Positions 2,663 through 10,996 of a DNA stretch of 36,156 bases are shown in pieces (positions within the stretch are counted from its first letter, which is position 1; each line of letters begins with the position of its first letter). The notes under the pieces were generated by a model that was given only the letters and a program-made list of their open reading frames with translations, was not told the origin of the DNA and made no database searches. The position numbers were made by a program, and so were the translations under genes. Origin of the DNA: an uncultured Clostridia bacterium (GTDB lineage: Bacteria; Bacillota; Clostridia; UBA1212; UBA1255); assembly GCA_947625435.1 (NCBI GenBank), contig CANQOI010000022.1, positions 1 through 36,156 of the forward strand, read 5' to 3'.

Positions 2663-4460
2663 TATTATCTGATTCATTCTCCTTCTTGAGAGGAACGACA
2701 CTTATGTTCAGTTCCTCAAGCTGCTTATCCTCTACATAATCCGGCGCCGACGACATAAGGCAGGATGCATTCTGAACCTTAGGAAATGCTATAGTATCTT
2801 TGATATTATCCGTACCGCATATGAGCATCGCAAGTCTGTCAAGACCGTATGCAAGTCCCCCGTGCGGAGGAGCTCCGTATTTGAATGCGTCGAGCAAAAA
2901 TCCGAAACGTTCTTCAGCCGCTTCCTTTGTAAAACCCAAAGCCGCGAACATGCGCTGCTGAAGCTCTCTGTCGTGTATTCTTATGCTGCCGCCGCCTATT
3001 TCATAACCGTTGAGCACAATATCGTACGCATCCGCCCGCACGGATCCCGGATCCGACTCAAGCTTATCCGCGTCCTCCGGTACAGGCGACGTAAACGGAT
3101 GGTGCATTGCTACATATCTGCCCTCTTCCTCTGAATATTCGAGAAGCGGGAATTCGGTTACCCATAAAAACTCAAAGCGCTTATTGTCTATCAGACCGAG
3201 TTTTTCAGCCAGCTCGCATCTGAGCGCGCCCAATACCGTATATATGACATTGCTCTTGCCCGAAACGATACATACGAGATCGCCCTTTACGGCGCCGGTA
3301 AGCCTTATTATCTCATTTATCTCATCGGCAGTGAGTACTTTTGAAACGGAAGAACGTATTTCATCGTTCACTGCGATCCACGCCATGCCGCTTCCGCCCT
3401 GTGTCTTTACGAATTCTGTCAGCTTGTCTATCTCTTTTCTCGTGAAATGTCCCGCAGGAGCCGCTATCGCGCGCACCGCTCCGCCCTCCTTTACCGCATT
3501 TGAGAATACGGCAAACGAGCAATCGGCGGCAAAAGCCGAAATATCGGTAAGCTCAAGTCCGAAGCGCACGTCCGGCTTGTCGGAGCCGAATCTTCTCATG
3601 GCTTCACTGTAAGGAATACGGGGAAAAGGAGTCTTTATATCCATGCCGAGAGTTTCCTTAAACAGTCTCTTAAGGAAGCCCTCGTTCACATTCATTACGT
3701 CCTCCGCCTCGACAAACGACATCTCAAGATCTATCTGAGTAAACTCCGGCTGTCTGTCGGCCCTCAGATCCTCGTCACGGAAGCATTTAACGATCTGCAT
3801 GTAGCGGTCAAATCCCGATATCATGAGCAGCTGCTTAAAAAGCTGCGGAGACTGAGGGAGCGCATAGAATTTACCGTGATGTATACGGCTCGGCACAAGA
3901 TAGTCTCTCGCACCTTCGGGCGTGCTCTTCGTAAGGAACGGCGTCTCTATCTCAACGAAGCCGTTCTCATCGAAATAATCGCGCGCCGTCTTTGCTATCT
4001 TGTGGCGCATCAGTATATTCTTCTGAAGAGAAGGTCTCCTGAGATCGAGATATCTGTATCTGAGCCTGTTCACCTCGCTCACATTGGCTTTGTCGTCAAT
4101 ATGGAAGGGCGGCGTCTGAGCCTCATTCAGTATGCGCAGCTCACTTACAAAAACCTCTATCTCACCGGTAGCCATATTTTTATTCACGGCTTCGGGTGCT
4201 CTCAGACGTACAGTACCTTTTGCTGCAAGAACGTACTCGTTTCTGACCGACGACGCTTTCTCGAAAAGAGCCGGATCCGTTTCGGAATCGAATACGAGCT
4301 GTACGATACCCGTGCGGTCACGCAGATCTATAAAAATAAGGCTGCCCAGATTCCTTGTTTTTGCTGTCCAGCCTGTAAGTGTGACCTCTCTGCCCGCATC
4401 GGACGCAGTCAGTCCGCCGTTATAACAAGTCCTCTTTAAGCCTGAAATATTTTCAGCCAT
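2655..4460 (-). CDS. aspS: aspartyl-tRNA synthetase
   Basis: This 601-residue protein charges tRNA-Asp with aspartate in the cytoplasm. Its length fits bacterial-type AspRS (about 590). An N-terminal OB-fold anticodon-binding domain ends in [17 protein letters not shown] (residues 41-57). Class II motif 2 is [19 protein letters not shown] (226-244). The bacterial GAD insertion lies in the middle (about 280-420), and motif 3 GLAYGLDRL is near 535. The ATG at 4460 follows GAGGTGA with a 6-nt spacer. A strong sigma-A-type promoter lies just upstream at 4495-4523, leaving a leader of only about 30 nt, so there is no room for a T-box. The stop codon overlaps the next gene's start. Whether the enzyme also charges tRNA-Asn cannot be decided from this window. 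Confidence 0.97.
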
Positions 4461-4494
4461 TTACTGTCACCTCAATCATTGTTCAATCGTCAAA

Positions 4495-4523
4495 ATTCTA
4501 TAATAATTGACCTTATATGTCAA
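4495..4523 (-). promoter_or_regulatory. sigma-A-type promoter of aspS
   Basis: On the minus strand TTGACA (4518-4523) is separated by 17 bp from TAGAAT (4495-4500). Both boxes sit between the malY-family stop codon and the aspS start. The -35 box begins 2 bp after the upstream gene ends. Confidence 0.8.
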
Positions 4524-4524
4524 A

Positions 4525-5682
4525 TTAAATTAAGGCGAGCGCCTCTCTCAATCTGTCAAGGCCGTCCTGAAGTATCTTCGCGGGACACGCTATGTTCATT
4601 CTCATGAATGCGGCTCCGGCTCTGCCGTACTGCGAGCCTTCGGAGATATAAAGTCCGGTCTTTTTCCTTATTTCATGTGCCAGTGCGCACGCATCGTCTG
4701 TTATATCCGAAAAGTCGAGCCACATGAGGTATGTGGCCTCAGAACGCACTGCCTTGACACCGGGTATGTTTTTCCCGATATATTCATACACATACTCTTT
4801 ATTTTTACTGATATATTCTCTGAGCTCGTCAAGCCATCTGCCTCCTTTTGTGAAAGCGGCTATCGCCGCCTGTACGGCAAAAGCGTTGGGCTCGGCTATC
4901 TCGTCTGTATTGAGGGCGCGCCGGACCTTATGTCTCATAGCTTTGTCCGGTACATAAACGGCTGCTGTCTGAAGACCTGCTATATTGAACGCCTTTGTGG
5001 GAGCCATACATGTGATACTGTTTTGGGCGCATTCGTCTGACACGGAAGCAAAAGGCACATATTCCCTGCCGGGGTCCGTCAGGTCGCAATGTATCTCATC
5101 CGAAATGATCTTAACATTGTTTTCGGCGCACAGCCTGCCTATGCGGGCGAGTGTTTCACGGTCCCATATCTTACCGATGGGATTGTGCGGATTACAAAGT
5201 ATCATGAGAGACGTCTGCGGATCCGAAAGCTTTTCTCCGAGCATGTCGAAGTCGATGCTGTATGCCCGGTCGTGATATATGAGAGGCGCTTCCGTCACAT
5301 TTCGCCCGTTGTTCAGTACCGAGTTGAAAAATATATTGTATACGGGCGTCTGTAAGAGCACTTTTTCTGCCGGAGTAGTTATTTTACGGACAATGCTCGA
5401 TATGGCCGGCACTACGCCGTTTACGAAGATGAGAGCGTCTTTCTCCGGTCTGAAACCGTGTCTTACTCTCCACCACTCCGAATAGGCTTCCGCCCATTCG
5501 TCGGGAACGATCGTGTACCCGTATATGCCGTGCGCAGCCCTTTCAAGTATCGCTTCCGTTATTTCAGGCGCCGTTTTAAAATCCATATCGGCTACCCACA
5601 TGGGGAGCTCGCCTTCATTTACGTCCCATTTGAGAGAATATGTGCCTTTGCGGTCTGTAACTGAATCAAAATCGTATTTCAT
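4525..5682 (-). CDS. MalY/PatB-family PLP-dependent aminotransferase (probable cystathionine beta-lyase)
   Basis: This is a 385-residue fold-type I PLP enzyme of the MalY/PatB subfamily. That family typically performs C-S beta-elimination on cystathionine or cysteine conjugates, giving homocysteine or thiols, pyruvate and ammonia. The subfamily's N-terminal signature is visible (LPMWVADMDF, residues 26-35; GIYGYT, 52-57). Others are NPHNPIG (164-170), SDEIHCDL (194-201, whose Asp contacts the PLP pyridine nitrogen) and the Schiff-base lysine K230 in APTKAFN. Length is normal. The gene is third in a minus-strand run after the M32 carboxypeptidase and DUF3737 genes, with a 22-nt gap to the latter. 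The ribosome binding site is weak (GGAGC). The family is certain; the exact substrate is inferred, and an aminotransferase role is possible. Confidence 0.88.
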   Translation of the reverse strand: MKYDFDSVTDRKGTYSLKWDVNEGELPMWVADMDFKTAPEITEAILERAAHGIYGYTIVPDEWAEAYSEWWRVRHGFRPEKDALIFVNGVVPAISSIVRKITTPAEKVLLQTPVYNIFFNSVLNNGRNVTEAPLIYHDRAYSIDFDMLGEKLSDPQTSLMILCNPHNPIGKIWDRETLARIGRLCAENNVKIISDEIHCDLTDPGREYVPFASVSDECAQNSITCMAPTKAFNIAGLQTAAVYVPDKAMRHKVRRALNTDEIAEPNAFAVQAAIAAFTKGGRWLDELREYISKNKEYVYEYIGKNIPGVKAVRSEATYLMWLDFSDITDDACALAHEIRKKTGLYISEGSQYGRAGAAFMRMNIACPAKILQDGLDRLREALALI

Positions 5683-8249: not shown

Positions 8250-8325
<76 letters not shown>

Positions 8326-8356: not shown

Positions 8357-8432
8357 GCCTCTATAGCTCAGTAGGTAGAGCGCAGCCATGGTAAGGCTGA
8401 GGTCGCCGGTTCGATTCCGGCTGGAGGCTCCA
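8357..8432 (+). tRNA. tRNA-Thr (anticodon GGT)
   Basis: A 76-nt cloverleaf with encoded CCA (8430-8432). The acceptor is GCCTCTA/TGGAGGC and the D stem GCTC/GAGC. Anticodon stem CAGCC/GGCTG encloses ATGGTAA (anticodon 8390-8392). The T arm is GCCGG/CCGGC. It reads ACC/ACU. A terminator hairpin starts at its last base, so 3' trimming must begin close to the CCA. Confidence 0.96.
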
Positions 8433-8477
8433 AAGAAGCGGTAACTCAGTCGGTTTCCGCTTCTTTTATCATTTTTT
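8432..8477 (+). terminator. intrinsic terminator of the tRNA-Ala/tRNA-Thr unit
   Basis: AAAGAAGCGG (8432-8441) pairs with CCGCTTCTTT (8457-8466), a 10-bp stem, followed by TATC and six T. It overlaps the end of the convergent VanX-like gene (stop 8469-8471). On the minus strand the T-run is only three bases, so termination in that direction would be weaker. Confidence 0.8.
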
Positions 8478-9254
8478 GGGGTAAAATTCCGTATCGGGAT
8501 AATATCTCTCGCTGTCGTTATAATGCCACCATTCGGCAAAATAGCCGTTGAACCCGCAGCTTTCCATTACATCTTCAAGTAAGCGTGCATTTGAAGCCGC
8601 ATTTTCGTCCGCGTCGGAATAATCGCGGTCCGCCGCATCCGTAAAACAGTCAAATCCCGTAGGCATTTCTATTTCATTACCGTTCATATCTGTAAGTGTG
8701 ATATCAACGGCGCTTCCCCTTGTATGATTCGAATAACCCTTATCGGGATCGGATACGTAATCTGCATCCGGGAAAACCTCCCACAGCTTCCGCTGCGAAG
8801 CGGCGGGTCTGAATGCATCCCATATTTTTATGCAGTATCCCTGCTTTCTGAGTATTTCCTGTGCTTTTGCCAGCTTCACGACTGTGCCGTACCTCGCGTA
8901 AGCATCCTTAAAATCATAAATCACCTGTCCCGTAAAATTATCTGATGTCGCATATTTCAGATCGATTATTATGTCCGGAATGTGATCCCTGATCCTCACG
9001 AGCGCGTCATCCGGCGGTATCGCGGCCGTATCTTCCGGACTGTCTTCCGTGATCTTATGCGGCGTTACGGCGGTTTCCGGGATATCGGTAATTTCAGGCG
9101 TTTCACGCGTTCCGGGCGTTTCGGACGCTTCGGGAGCTTCCGATGTCTCCTCGGCGGGTACGCTTTTTATGTCAGAACACGCAGATACAAAGAATACCAG
9201 ACATGCGAGCAGACCGAAAGCAAATATAAATATCATTAATTCACTCATTTTCAT
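8469..9254 (-). CDS. VanX-like D-alanyl-D-alanine dipeptidase (peptidase M15D), predicted lipoprotein
   Basis: The protein has 261 residues. Residues 1-26 form a lipoprotein signal (hydrophobic core, lipobox VSAC, Cys26). A Thr/Pro/Glu-rich linker follows (about 35-80), then an M15 peptidase domain. The zinc ligands match VanX spacing: H177 and D184 in SNHTRGSAVD, H244 in EWWHYN, with catalytic E241 and R149 in DAFRP. VanX hydrolyses D-Ala-D-Ala; the lipoprotein signal and linker predict that this enzyme acts outside the membrane on the cell wall or released dipeptides. No vanH, vanA or vanS/R homologue is near, so glycopeptide resistance is not supported. AGGTGG precedes the ATG at 9254 by 6 nt. 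It stands alone, facing tRNA genes on both sides. Assignment to M15 is firm; substrate is inferred. Confidence 0.9.
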   Translation of the reverse strand: MKMSELMIFIFAFGLLACLVFFVSACSDIKSVPAEETSEAPEASETPGTRETPEITDIPETAVTPHKITEDSPEDTAAIPPDDALVRIRDHIPDIIIDLKYATSDNFTGQVIYDFKDAYARYGTVVKLAKAQEILRKQGYCIKIWDAFRPAASQRKLWEVFPDADYVSDPDKGYSNHTRGSAVDITLTDMNGNEIEMPTGFDCFTDAADRDYSDADENAASNARLLEDVMESCGFNGYFAEWWHYNDSERYYPDTEFYPKK

Positions 9255-9282
9255 TTACAACCACCTGAAAATATGCTATCAT
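9254..9282 (+). promoter_or_regulatory. sigma-A-type promoter of tRNA-Gly
   Basis: TTTACA (9254-9259), 17 bp, TATCAT (9277-9282); each box matches consensus at 5 of 6 positions. The first base of the -35 box is also the first base of the divergent VanX-like start codon. The predicted start near 9289 is about 12 nt before the tRNA. Confidence 0.65.
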
Positions 9283-9300: not shown

Positions 9301-9374
9301 GCGGGTGTAGTTCAATGGCAGAATTCCAGCTTCCCAAGCTGATCACGGGGGTTCGATTCCCCTCACCCGCTCCA
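9301..9374 (+). tRNA. tRNA-Gly (anticodon CCC)
   Basis: A 74-nt cloverleaf with encoded CCA (9372-9374). The acceptor GCGGGTG/CACCCGC is perfectly paired, the loop TTCCCAA contains anticodon CCC, and the T arm carries TTCGATT. The anticodon stem reads CCAGC/GCTGA, leaving a C-A mismatch at the 27-43 position where G would restore pairing. It reads GGG. Its own promoter and terminator flank it. Confidence 0.93.
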
Positions 9375-9418: not shown

Positions 9419-9862
9419 TCACAATATGCGTTTCATCGTGAGCGCAGTATCTCCGTTTTCGTAATAATTCTTTCTTATGCCTATCTGCTCGAATCCTTCG
9501 CTCCTGTAAAGCTTCAAGGCGTTATGATTCTGTTCCCGGACTTCGAGAAATGTACAGACGCAGCCGCTTTCTTTGAGATATTCGAGCGATCTCCTGAGGA
9601 TATCTCTCCCCAATCCGCGCGACCGGTATGAAGAGCGAACTGCTATGCGAAGTATCTCTCCTTCGTCAAGTATATGCTGCACACACGAAAATCCGACGGC
9701 ACAGCCGCACTCAAACGGCACTATATACGACACGAAACCGCTTTCTGCACCGGCTGTTATGCTGCTGACGCTCCACGGTTCGGGAAATGACTCTTTTTCT
9801 ATTTCGGCTATCATGCAGGCCTTATCATACGGTATGCCCGCTCCGTAACACTCATATATCAT
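9419..9862 (-). CDS. rimI: ribosomal protein S18-alanine N-acetyltransferase RimI
   Basis: This is a GNAT-family acetyltransferase of 147 residues from the chosen ATG at 9860-9862. An upstream in-frame start exists but lies deep inside tsaB and would add 53 residues that do not resemble the family. Visible features are the N-terminal EKESFPEPWS, the acetyl-CoA-binding stretch RSSYRSRGLGRDIL (motif RxxGxG) and the C-terminal NHNALKLYRSEGFEQIGIRKNYY typical of RimI. It acetylates the N-terminal alanine of S18 in E. coli, and in many Bacillota it is encoded with tsaB and tsaE. It overlaps tsaB by 11 nt and is last in the tsaE-tsaB-rimI unit. Confidence 0.93.
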   Translation of the reverse strand: MIYECYGAGIPYDKACMIAEIEKESFPEPWSVSSITAGAESGFVSYIVPFECGCAVGFSCVQHILDEGEILRIAVRSSYRSRGLGRDILRRSLEYLKESGCVCTFLEVREQNHNALKLYRSEGFEQIGIRKNYYENGDTALTMKRIL

Positions 9863-10547
9863 CTGTATATTTCTTATAGTAATCGATCTTGAGACGGGAG
9901 GGTGCCATATCGGAAAGGTCTCCCCTTTCGCAGGCCGCCTTATATTTCCTGTATGCGGAAAGAGACAGAGCTGTCGGGCTTCCGTTTGACAGCTGTTCCG
10001 GAGCCGGCACAAACATTTCACCGAGTTTACCGCAGAACAGCTCTTTATTGCTCGCCACTCCGTCGCCTGTAAAAACGATACGCTCTCCTTTGTGATCTTT
10101 TATGAGTCTGTCGCACAGTTCATCGCACGAGATCGCTTCCGAAGCCATGACCTTACGGCCGCCTATGTAAAGAGCCGCATATACTCTTGCATTTCTGGCA
10201 TCTATTACGGGACATACTGCCGCATCTGAAGAAGTGACACAGGAAAGTGCGAGAGCTTCCAGCGAATCGATCCCTATCACGGGAACATTCAATGTGTATC
10301 CGTACGTTTTCGCGGTAGTCACTCCGATCCTGAGTCCGGTGTAAGAACCCGGTCCGTTTGTGACTGCCACCGCACAGATATCCTCGTTCCTTGTATCCGA
10401 GGCCTTCAATACGTATTCGATCGCAGGAAGCAGCTTGACGGAATGCGTCTTGCCGTCACATATCGACACAGACGCCAGCACGCGCGTGTTCTCGGATACT
10501 GCGGCCATGGCCGTGCTGCACGAAGTGTCCATTGAAAGTATCCTCAC
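9852..10547 (-). CDS. tsaB: tRNA threonylcarbamoyladenosine biosynthesis protein TsaB
   Basis: A 231-residue ASKHA-fold protein with N-terminal MRILSMDTSCS and the TsaB/TsaD-family stretch VTNGPGSYTGLRIGV (around residues 63-77). TsaB is the non-catalytic partner that binds TsaD and TsaE to place the t6A modification at A37 of ANN-decoding tRNAs. The start is GTG (10545-10547), overlapping the tsaE stop by 4 nt (GTGA). Length is normal. tsaD is not in the window. Confidence 0.95.
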   Translation of the reverse strand: MRILSMDTSCSTAMAAVSENTRVLASVSICDGKTHSVKLLPAIEYVLKASDTRNEDICAVAVTNGPGSYTGLRIGVTTAKTYGYTLNVPVIGIDSLEALALSCVTSSDAAVCPVIDARNARVYAALYIGGRKVMASEAISCDELCDRLIKDHKGERIVFTGDGVASNKELFCGKLGEMFVPAPEQLSNGSPTALSLSAYRKYKAACERGDLSDMAPSRLKIDYYKKYTDDI

Positions 10548-10996
10548 GGTTCAAACCTCCTTATCTCAATATCGCGTCTTTCCGGTGAAATATCATCACG
10601 TCTTAATATTTTTACATGTGTTATACGGTTTTTATAAATGCGCATTATCTCGGGGATCCTGTCGGCCCATTCTATAAAAATGACAGCCTGTTCGGATGCA
10701 TATTCCTCAAAGCCTGTCTCCGTAAGCTCATCATATGACGATATCCTGTAAAGATCATAATGATAAAGAGGTATACGGCCCCCTTTATATTCGTTAAGGA
10801 TAGTGAAAGTGGGACTTGTGATATAATCGTCTATTCCCAGTGCTCTTGCCGCACCGCCTGTAAAATGTGTCTTGCCCGCTCCGAGATCTCCCTCCAAAGC
10901 GACTATGTCACCGGGCTTCAGCAGCGACCCTATCTTAGCGCCCAAAGCGGCCGTTTCATACTCGCTGTCGGTTTTAAATTTAAGAAGAAGCTCCAC
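10544..10996 (-). CDS. tsaE: tRNA threonylcarbamoyladenosine biosynthesis ATPase TsaE
   Basis: A 150-residue P-loop protein with Walker A GDLGAGKTH (residues 36-44), switch-like TSPTFTILNEY and the Walker B-like FIEWADR. TsaE hydrolyses ATP to reset the TsaBD complex in t6A synthesis. The GTG start (10994-10996) follows an AGGAG at a rather long 12-nt distance; the ATG nearer to the AGGAG is out of frame. It is the first gene of the tsaE-tsaB-rimI set. No promoter of its own is evident, so it may depend on readthrough past the rpsI terminator. Confidence 0.95.
   Translation of the reverse strand: MELLLKFKTDSEYETAALGAKIGSLLKPGDIVALEGDLGAGKTHFTGGAARALGIDDYITSPTFTILNEYKGGRIPLYHYDLYRISSYDELTETGFEEYASEQAVIFIEWADRIPEIMRIYKNRITHVKILRRDDISPERRDIEIRRFEP

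Follow-up and report, generated by a model that had tools for sequence, protein, structure and literature searches.

Background

VanX acts in the cytoplasm as a resistance enzyme, PcgL is a periplasmic protein, and dipeptidase activity has been measured for DdpX. In the available excerpts of two papers, PcgL of Salmonella is called a D-Ala-D-Ala dipeptidase (PMC7933661, PMC3335776), and an excerpt of a third describes an Enterobacterales group, "peptidase M15D vanX", in which the signal-peptide state varies with lifestyle (PMC5952966). Exported M15 peptidases are already known, PcgL and ZrlA of Acinetobacter baumannii among them. A large clade of M15D lipoproteins in Clostridia seems to be little described, as no description of the clade and its partners was found in the accessible text of the open-licence literature, in which a full-text search turned up two papers that name PF01427. 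The gene analyzed here belongs to an uncultured Clostridia bacterium, and the window is the whole stretch of 36,156 nucleotides that was analyzed. The initial annotation had proposed a lipid-anchored VanX-like D,D-dipeptidase that lacks van neighbors.

The gene and its surroundings

The gene and its closest neighbors are arranged as follows:

8469..9254, minus strand: M15D open reading frame, ATG start, 261 amino acids, comprising signal peptide, lipobox, Glu/Pro/Thr linker and M15D (VanX/DdpX-type) zinc peptidase domain
9261..9266, minus strand: Shine-Dalgarno-like AGGTGG, 6 bases 5' of the M15D ATG, read in the sequence
9177..9254, minus strand: signal peptide and lipobox VSAC, with predicted lipidated Cys26 (codon 9177-9179) and a helix at residues 3-24 in the model
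9009..9176, minus strand: low-complexity linker, residues 27-82 (10 Glu, 9 Pro, 9 Thr, 6 Ala), pLDDT mostly low
8472..9008, minus strand: catalytic domain, residues 83-261, from profile, alignment and structure comparison
8250..8325 and 8357..8432, plus strand: tRNA-Ala and tRNA-Thr, immediately downstream of the M15D gene on the opposite strand
9301..9374, plus strand: tRNA-Gly, between the M15D gene and rimI on the opposite strand, an arrangement repeated in genome G003
9419..10021, 9852..10547 and 10544..10996, minus strand: rimI, tsaB and tsaE, upstream neighbors whose order is kept in genomes G001, G003 and G004

The identity of rimI comes from an NCBIfam match, the names tsaB and tsaE are our presumption from the translations, and a further neighboring reading frame, without an NCBIfam match, is one that we take to encode an M32 peptidase. 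Among the other four genomes of the genus, an orthologous M15D gene is found in G001, G003 and G004 but is missing from G002, and in all three carriers it follows tsaE-tsaB-rimI as it does in the window. The tRNA-Thr gene adjoins it in G003 and G004, and G003 has the tRNA-Gly gene too. No van gene was found among the window reading frames, the neighbors being tRNAs, rimI, tsaB, tsaE and the M32-like gene, so that the earlier statement on the locus itself stood; membership in a local van cluster was ruled out by these reading frames together with the neighbors in the genus genomes. A dipeptide ABC transporter was likewise absent from the reading frames neighboring the M15D gene in the window. 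No promoter of its own is claimed for the gene, because the minus-strand promoter hits in the scanned stretch all fall downstream of it. A spore-cortex role, which the initial annotation had raised, or another role in sporulation is not supported; the genes that we take from the open reading frames to be spore genes lie at least 15 kb away.

Carriage as phage or plasmid cargo was considered and rejected, as all 489 plasmid records returned by tblastn stayed below 60% identity and short of 80% query coverage. One unverified phage record matched the window protein at 55.9% identity (tblastn). This record, the "bacteriophage" scaffold MT835750.1 (L183) from human feces, contains an M15D domain at 4083-4592 and may be mislabeled bacterial DNA.

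Signal peptide, lipobox and linker

Residues 1-25 of the protein form a hydrophobic signal that runs into V-S-A-C, and the lipobox proposed at Cys26 was confirmed as the sole match to the strict pattern [LVI][ASTVI][GAS]C in the protein. When residues 8-45 were shuffled, a strict lipobox arose in the same stretch in 2.5% of shuffles. Lipoproteins were called by a simple rule that asks for a hydrophobic stretch and, after it, a lipobox cysteine, and the window protein has both. Of 73 parsed relatives from named genomes, 64 carry a hydrophobic stretch at the N-terminus. The strict lipobox pattern was present in 21 of the 64, as compared to a mean of 1.4 and a maximum of 6 over 300 shuffles, and the relaxed pattern in 44, as compared to a mean of 13.1 and a maximum of 20; the null is residue shuffling only.

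The spacer behind the cysteine had been given as 45 residues, which is too short; the linker covers about 56 (residues 27-82). The later in-frame starts are codons 3 and 7 and then GTG86, and a later start that would remove the signal is discounted because GTG86 already borders on the catalytic domain. A cytoplasmic VanX with a mis-called start was ruled out by these start codons and by the approximately unbiased (AU) test described below. The N-terminal features make it very probable that the protein is exported and lipid-anchored.

Family, fold and active site

The window protein matched Pfam Peptidase_M15 (PF01427, MEROPS M15D) over residues 85-255 with an E-value of 2.5e-34 and a score of 119.3 bits against a cut-off of 27. 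It narrowly missed the NCBIfam DdpX equivalog NF007557 (165.4 bits, cut-off 176) and missed the VanX equivalog NF033115 widely (96.1 bits, cut-off 320), and its sequence matched VanX (1r44) in the PDB at 5.9e-23. The AlphaFold model (pLDDT 85.7) superimposed on VanX with a Z-score of 23.9 and an rmsd of 2.2 Å over 175 residues, LdcB, VanXY, VanY and Hedgehog domains came next with Z-scores of about 10, and Foldseek likewise placed VanX first. In the host genome (2.03 Mb, 86 contigs, 98% complete) the window protein is the single match to PF01427 and also the sole match to PF02557, the VanY family, while PF13539 and PF08291, further M15 families, gave no match. An enzyme that is VanX-like in both sequence and predicted fold, with a signal or lipobox common to its clade, agrees with the proposal of a lipid-anchored VanX-like enzyme outside the membrane.

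The active-site residues H177, D184, E241, H244 and R149 are located where the initial annotation had placed them and align with VanX H116, D123, E181, H184 and R71, so that the H-D-H zinc triad, the catalytic Glu and the Arg of M15D are all present. In addition, D202, W242 and W243 are equivalent to VanX D142, W182 and W183. The residues are identical at 16 of 18 mapped VanX positions, which include the zinc ligands, E181, R71, Y21, Y35, D68, S114, D142, W182 and W183; we take Y21, Y35, D68, S114 and D142 to line the VanX pocket, and the equivalent of D142 is retained in 24 of 24 rows compared. In the 60-sequence alignment A2, which holds 59 of the 73 loci that could be parsed with a pattern built on the H-D and E-H motifs, Y101, Y113, D146, R149, H177, D184, D202, E241, W242, W243 and H244 are invariant, although among the five active-site residues only the invariance of R149 is independent, because the rows were chosen by that same pattern. 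Four relatives from the clade (L006, L007, L107 and L167) have R or T at the position of S175. Six of the best 80 of at least 578 named relatives, all six apparently exported and none included in A2, carry EWWD in place of EWWH, with Asp replacing the third zinc His, H244 (L105, L111, L115, L121, L136 and L156). As judged from its conserved residues, the window protein is in all likelihood an active metallopeptidase.

In terms of spacing, the claimed likeness to VanX was borne out only in part. The H-D and E-H distances of 7 and 3 are those of VanX and the D-E distance is 57 versus 58, but R149 and H177 are 28 residues apart as compared to 45 in VanX-A and VanX-B, and 27 in DdpX. The insert between R71 and H116 of VanX is therefore missing, and in its absence the pocket of the window protein may be more open than that of VanX. 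A shorter loop that opens the pocket is also the starting point of a different explanation, in which the protein would be a surface D,D-carboxypeptidase that takes the last D-Ala off lipid II or pentapeptide stems, like VanY or C. difficile DacJ, and leaves fewer targets for vancomycin. Several reports, as far as their available excerpts go, lend themselves to such an activity: the open site of LdcB is tied to the absence of a bisubstrate selectivity loop (PMC4087270), the A. baumannii M15 lipoprotein ZrlA is reported as a D-Ala-D-Ala carboxypeptidase (PMC7812711), and surface DacJ lowers vancomycin binding in C. difficile (PMC11326576). However, DdpX has an equally short loop and is annotated as a dipeptidase, the pocket positions of VanX, D142 among them, are conserved, and the Z-score to VanX is far above those to VanY, VanXY and LdcB. 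We consider a carboxypeptidase unlikely, and its remaining support and a further objection are found in the van genes of the genome, described below.

Two other arginines, R121 and R210, are invariant in A2, are Arg in 16 of 16 clade rows compared, and differ in both DdpX and VanX, and they mark the clade of the window protein; Q154 is also invariant in A2 but is shared with DdpX. If R121 and R210 set the specificity, then the enzyme could belong to a set that scavenges muropeptides and cut another short wall peptide, for which L-Ala-D-Glu and D-Ala-D-Ser are examples. In favor of this, the A2 profile also matched 2vo9, an L-alanyl-D-glutamate endolysin (1.8e-7), M14 peptidases occur as fusion partners of related M15D domains, and the B. 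subtilis L,D-endopeptidase CwlK is tabulated under PF01427 in the part of PMC10653849 that was available. In the control search, however, B. subtilis gave no match to PF01427 and a match to PF13539, so that CwlK looks like a member of a different M15 family; moreover, VanX is the best match of the window protein by far, and the zinc, catalytic and pocket positions are kept. A substrate of this other kind is accordingly rated as improbable.

Phylogenetic placement

The tree consisted of 86 rows, 20 of which were hand-picked from the 73 parsed named loci, with L026 and L074 left out. The labels were given by simple rules, whose automatic choice of start codons mislabeled some proteins, five rows (L004, L005, L007, L013 and L035) were relabeled as lipoprotein by hand, and one protein is present twice under two labels (L054 and L100). 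The window protein grouped with L003, L004 and L005 (support 88) within a 27-row set (SH-aLRT 100), in which 22 rows are labeled lipoprotein and five membrane-anchored, counts that do not represent an unbiased sample because many of the 20 hand-picked rows were chosen as fusions. VanX-A, VanX-B and six signal-less proteins formed a separate set (100) inside the long-insert branch. DdpX fell outside the set of the window protein, and its own placement is weak (77).

Within this comparison with VanX, DdpX and lipoprotein homologs, a single clade with VanX was rejected (p-AU 0.00266), which sided with the initial annotation, and a single clade of the window protein and the two DdpX rows alone was not (p-AU 0.0716). 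The window protein is not a relocated VanX.

Distribution and export of related proteins

Thirteen of 58 genomes, the host included, contained a match to the window protein at 1e-3 or better; the match in G023 is weak (about 1e-4) and is not a PF01427 match. Genome G001 also encodes, on the minus strand of contig C171, another M15D-like protein (L026), which is divergent, has an extended N-terminal region and scores only 32 bits against PF01427. In a larger sample of the phylum, PF01427 was found in 54 of 398 genomes at 60 places. The classification covers 50 of the 60 and omits the window's own place, those of G167 and G225, the split places of G077, G373 and G416, and the second G343 place. 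Among the 50, L067 was unparsed, and L074, whose N-terminus is masked, was counted as signal-less. By the simple hydrophobicity rule used for export calls, 38 of the 49 parsed proteins have an N-terminal hydrophobic stretch, nine of them with a lipobox, and 11 have none. Six of the 11 signal-less proteins are VanX-type (L027-L032).

At least 578 relatives were confirmed in named genomes. Among the best 80 of these, 69 of the 73 that were parsed by the pattern look exported and 51 have a lipobox, a share that is biased to the window protein's own type because the 80 were ranked by similarity to the query. The seven unparsed proteins also look exported by eye, for a total of 76 of the best 80. 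The four signal-less rows include L098, the G004 orthologue, which has a hydrophobic stretch and T-S-C, and L175, which is cut by a contig end. By title, the best 80 of the at least 578 are mostly Clostridia metagenome-assembled genomes, many from animal gut, and the cultured organisms among them include Lachnospira pectinoschiza, Oscillibacter sp. 1-3, Faecalicatena contorta, [Clostridium] fimetarium and Sporotomaculum syntrophicum. The initial annotation had treated an exported M15D enzyme as out of the ordinary, and the counts in both samples speak against this: the window protein itself seems to be ordinary, and it is its group that seems under-described.

When 514 mechanically called reading frames around the 73 M15D loci were clustered, no neighbor family occurred at more than 8 loci. 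An AgcS alanine symporter gene was located within approximately 2.1 kb of the M15D gene at 8 of the 73 loci, in three separate contexts, and its identity was confirmed with TIGR00835 for three representatives. AgcS was rejected as a general M15D partner, since it occurs at these 8 loci only, six of the eight make up one syntenic group of similar proteins, and the symporter was absent when the host genome was searched. The proximity fits D-Ala uptake in the organisms that have it.

Domain fusions

Twenty proteins with long extensions, selected for those extensions, were scanned with Pfam. M15D is followed by SH3 and M14 domains in L006, L007 and L107, and the solved structures closest to the M14 domain of L006 are those of carboxypeptidases A, B and T, which are not specific for the wall. 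PGA_cap (CapA) follows M15D in L100, L149 and L165 and precedes it in L058 and L064. An SH3 domain follows M15D in L101 and L137, and an SH3 domain just below the cut-off precedes it in L008. Cthe_2159 precedes M15D in L157, L037 has a partial SLH match, and no Pfam partner domain was found in L135, L051 and L065. L,D-transpeptidase domains of the YkuD type occur in both orders, as M15D-YkuD in L041, to which L043 is close in the tree, and as YkuD-M15D in L013 (23.0 versus a cut-off of 23.4, and thus below it), which suggests separate fusion events. The long-insert branch holds L013, L037 and L041, and the 27-row set of the window protein holds L006, L007, L100, L101, L107, L122, L137, L149, L157, L163 and L165. 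Fusion partners of M15D, such as SH3_3, M14, PGA_cap and YkuD, act mostly on the wall or at the surface. The partners fit an export of the M15D domain and do not fix its substrate. SH3 partners are also tabulated for IPR000755 in the available part of a review (PMC6403190).

BlaR1-type M56 receptors with a C-terminal M15D domain were found at L122:1503-4522 and L163:1493-4771, the latter with a sub-threshold SH3 domain. The L122 receptor (BlaR1 match 134.6, cut-off 400) is encoded shortly after a BlaI-like gene (71.9 bits, cut-off 180). The M15D domain of both occupies the C-terminal sensor position, which is extracytoplasmic in such receptors, and the two proteins may sense D-Ala-D-Ala or wall peptides. 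By extension, the window protein might bind instead of cleave, acting as a surface sensor or sink for D-Ala-D-Ala, and the EWWD variants described above would suit such a role. Since the window protein keeps all of its zinc and catalytic residues, we regard binding without catalysis as very improbable.

Van genes elsewhere in the genome

The absence of van genes holds for the locus but not for the genome. Six hits to PF07478 include two strong D-Ala ligase matches, the first of which passed the D-Ala-D-Ala ligase cut-off (421.7 versus 262) and stands beside a gene that we take to encode a glutamate racemase. The second, on contig C67 (L192:3-2412), passed the VanG D-Ala-D-Ser ligase cut-off (550.9 versus 495) and overlaps an open frame that is cut by the contig end and whose best family is VanT (381 bits versus a cut-off of 900). 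No VanXY gene lies between the vanG-type and vanT-like genes of C67. In G003, vanR, vanS, vanG and vanT each passed at least one cut-off, and vanG abuts a vanT-like gene (L205), again without vanXY between them, whereas in G040 a VanXY_G-like gene (429.6 versus a cut-off of 500) is located between vanG and vanT.

VanG was over the cut-off in three of 58 genomes, the host included (G000, the host; G003; and G040). The host and G003 have the M15D gene as well, G040 has VanG and no M15D gene, and G001 and G004 have the M15D gene with no VanG over the cut-off. For the carboxypeptidase explanation, a VanG-type ligase overlapping a VanT-like gene, in a genome with no other PF02557 match, counts in its favor, and the presence of VanG over the cut-off in only two of the four genus members with the M15D gene counts against it. 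The distribution of the two genes over these genomes makes a fixed partnership of M15D and VanG unlikely. The VanG pair is treated as only a side observation, because an exported enzyme should not replace a cytoplasmic VanXY step and because half of these four genus members have no VanG over the cut-off.

Proposed function

The explanation that we favor, with moderate confidence, is that the protein works at the surface as a D,D-dipeptidase on dipeptides that come from the wall, D-Ala-D-Ala for example, and that it is a chromosomal housekeeping enzyme and not one of a van cassette. As predicted from the sequence, Sec export and lipidation of Cys26 would tether the protein to the outside of the membrane, and the flexible linker would let the catalytic domain reach out. 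By analogy with VanX, H177, D184 and H244 would bind zinc, E241 would activate water, R149 would stabilize the transition state, and the pocket would accept a free dipeptide. In nature the enzyme likely acts on D-Ala-D-Ala or on a D,D-dipeptide like it, set free from the wall peptides of its own cell or of neighbors that have lysed, and the resulting D-amino acids may then be taken up or used. That a dipeptide of the D-Ala-D-Ala type is the main substrate is, in our estimate, somewhat better than an even prospect.

A broader scheme, to which we attach little weight, would combine surface scavenging and sensing of D,D-dipeptides in Clostridia. Here the lipoprotein M15D enzymes would cleave wall-derived D-Ala-D-Ala, and the BlaR1-type receptors, with M15D replacing the penicillin-binding sensor, would read the same ligand. 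In the genus of the window, the exported M15D enzyme would work beside a vanG-vanT pair without VanXY and couple D-Ala-D-Ser walls to an outer D,D-dipeptidase.

If M15D lipoproteins do cut D-Ala-D-Ala outside the cell, this would bear on D-alanine turnover in the gut. In addition, vancomycin resistance should not be concluded from an automatic label of "D-Ala-D-Ala dipeptidase" on a member of this clade.

Comparison with known systems

The M15B enzymes LdcB/DacB and VanY belong to the same fold superfamily as the window protein but reach Z-scores of only about 10 or less against the model. ZrlA of A. baumannii, likened here by description and not by sequence, is also a lipoprotein with an M15 peptidase domain, but has a QxH motif instead of ExxH and is a reported carboxypeptidase, according to the available text of PMC7812711. 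PcgL of Salmonella, likened in the same way, is likewise a D-Ala-D-Ala dipeptidase by name and comes from a Gram-negative organism. VanX (1r44) shares the fold, the zinc site, the catalytic Glu, the Arg and the pocket residues with the window protein; it differs in its longer R-to-H insert and in its location in van clusters, and the window protein did not group with it (p-AU 0.003). DdpX of E. coli (b1488) has the short R-to-H loop of the window protein, but lacks a signal peptide and is encoded next to dipeptide ABC transporter genes.
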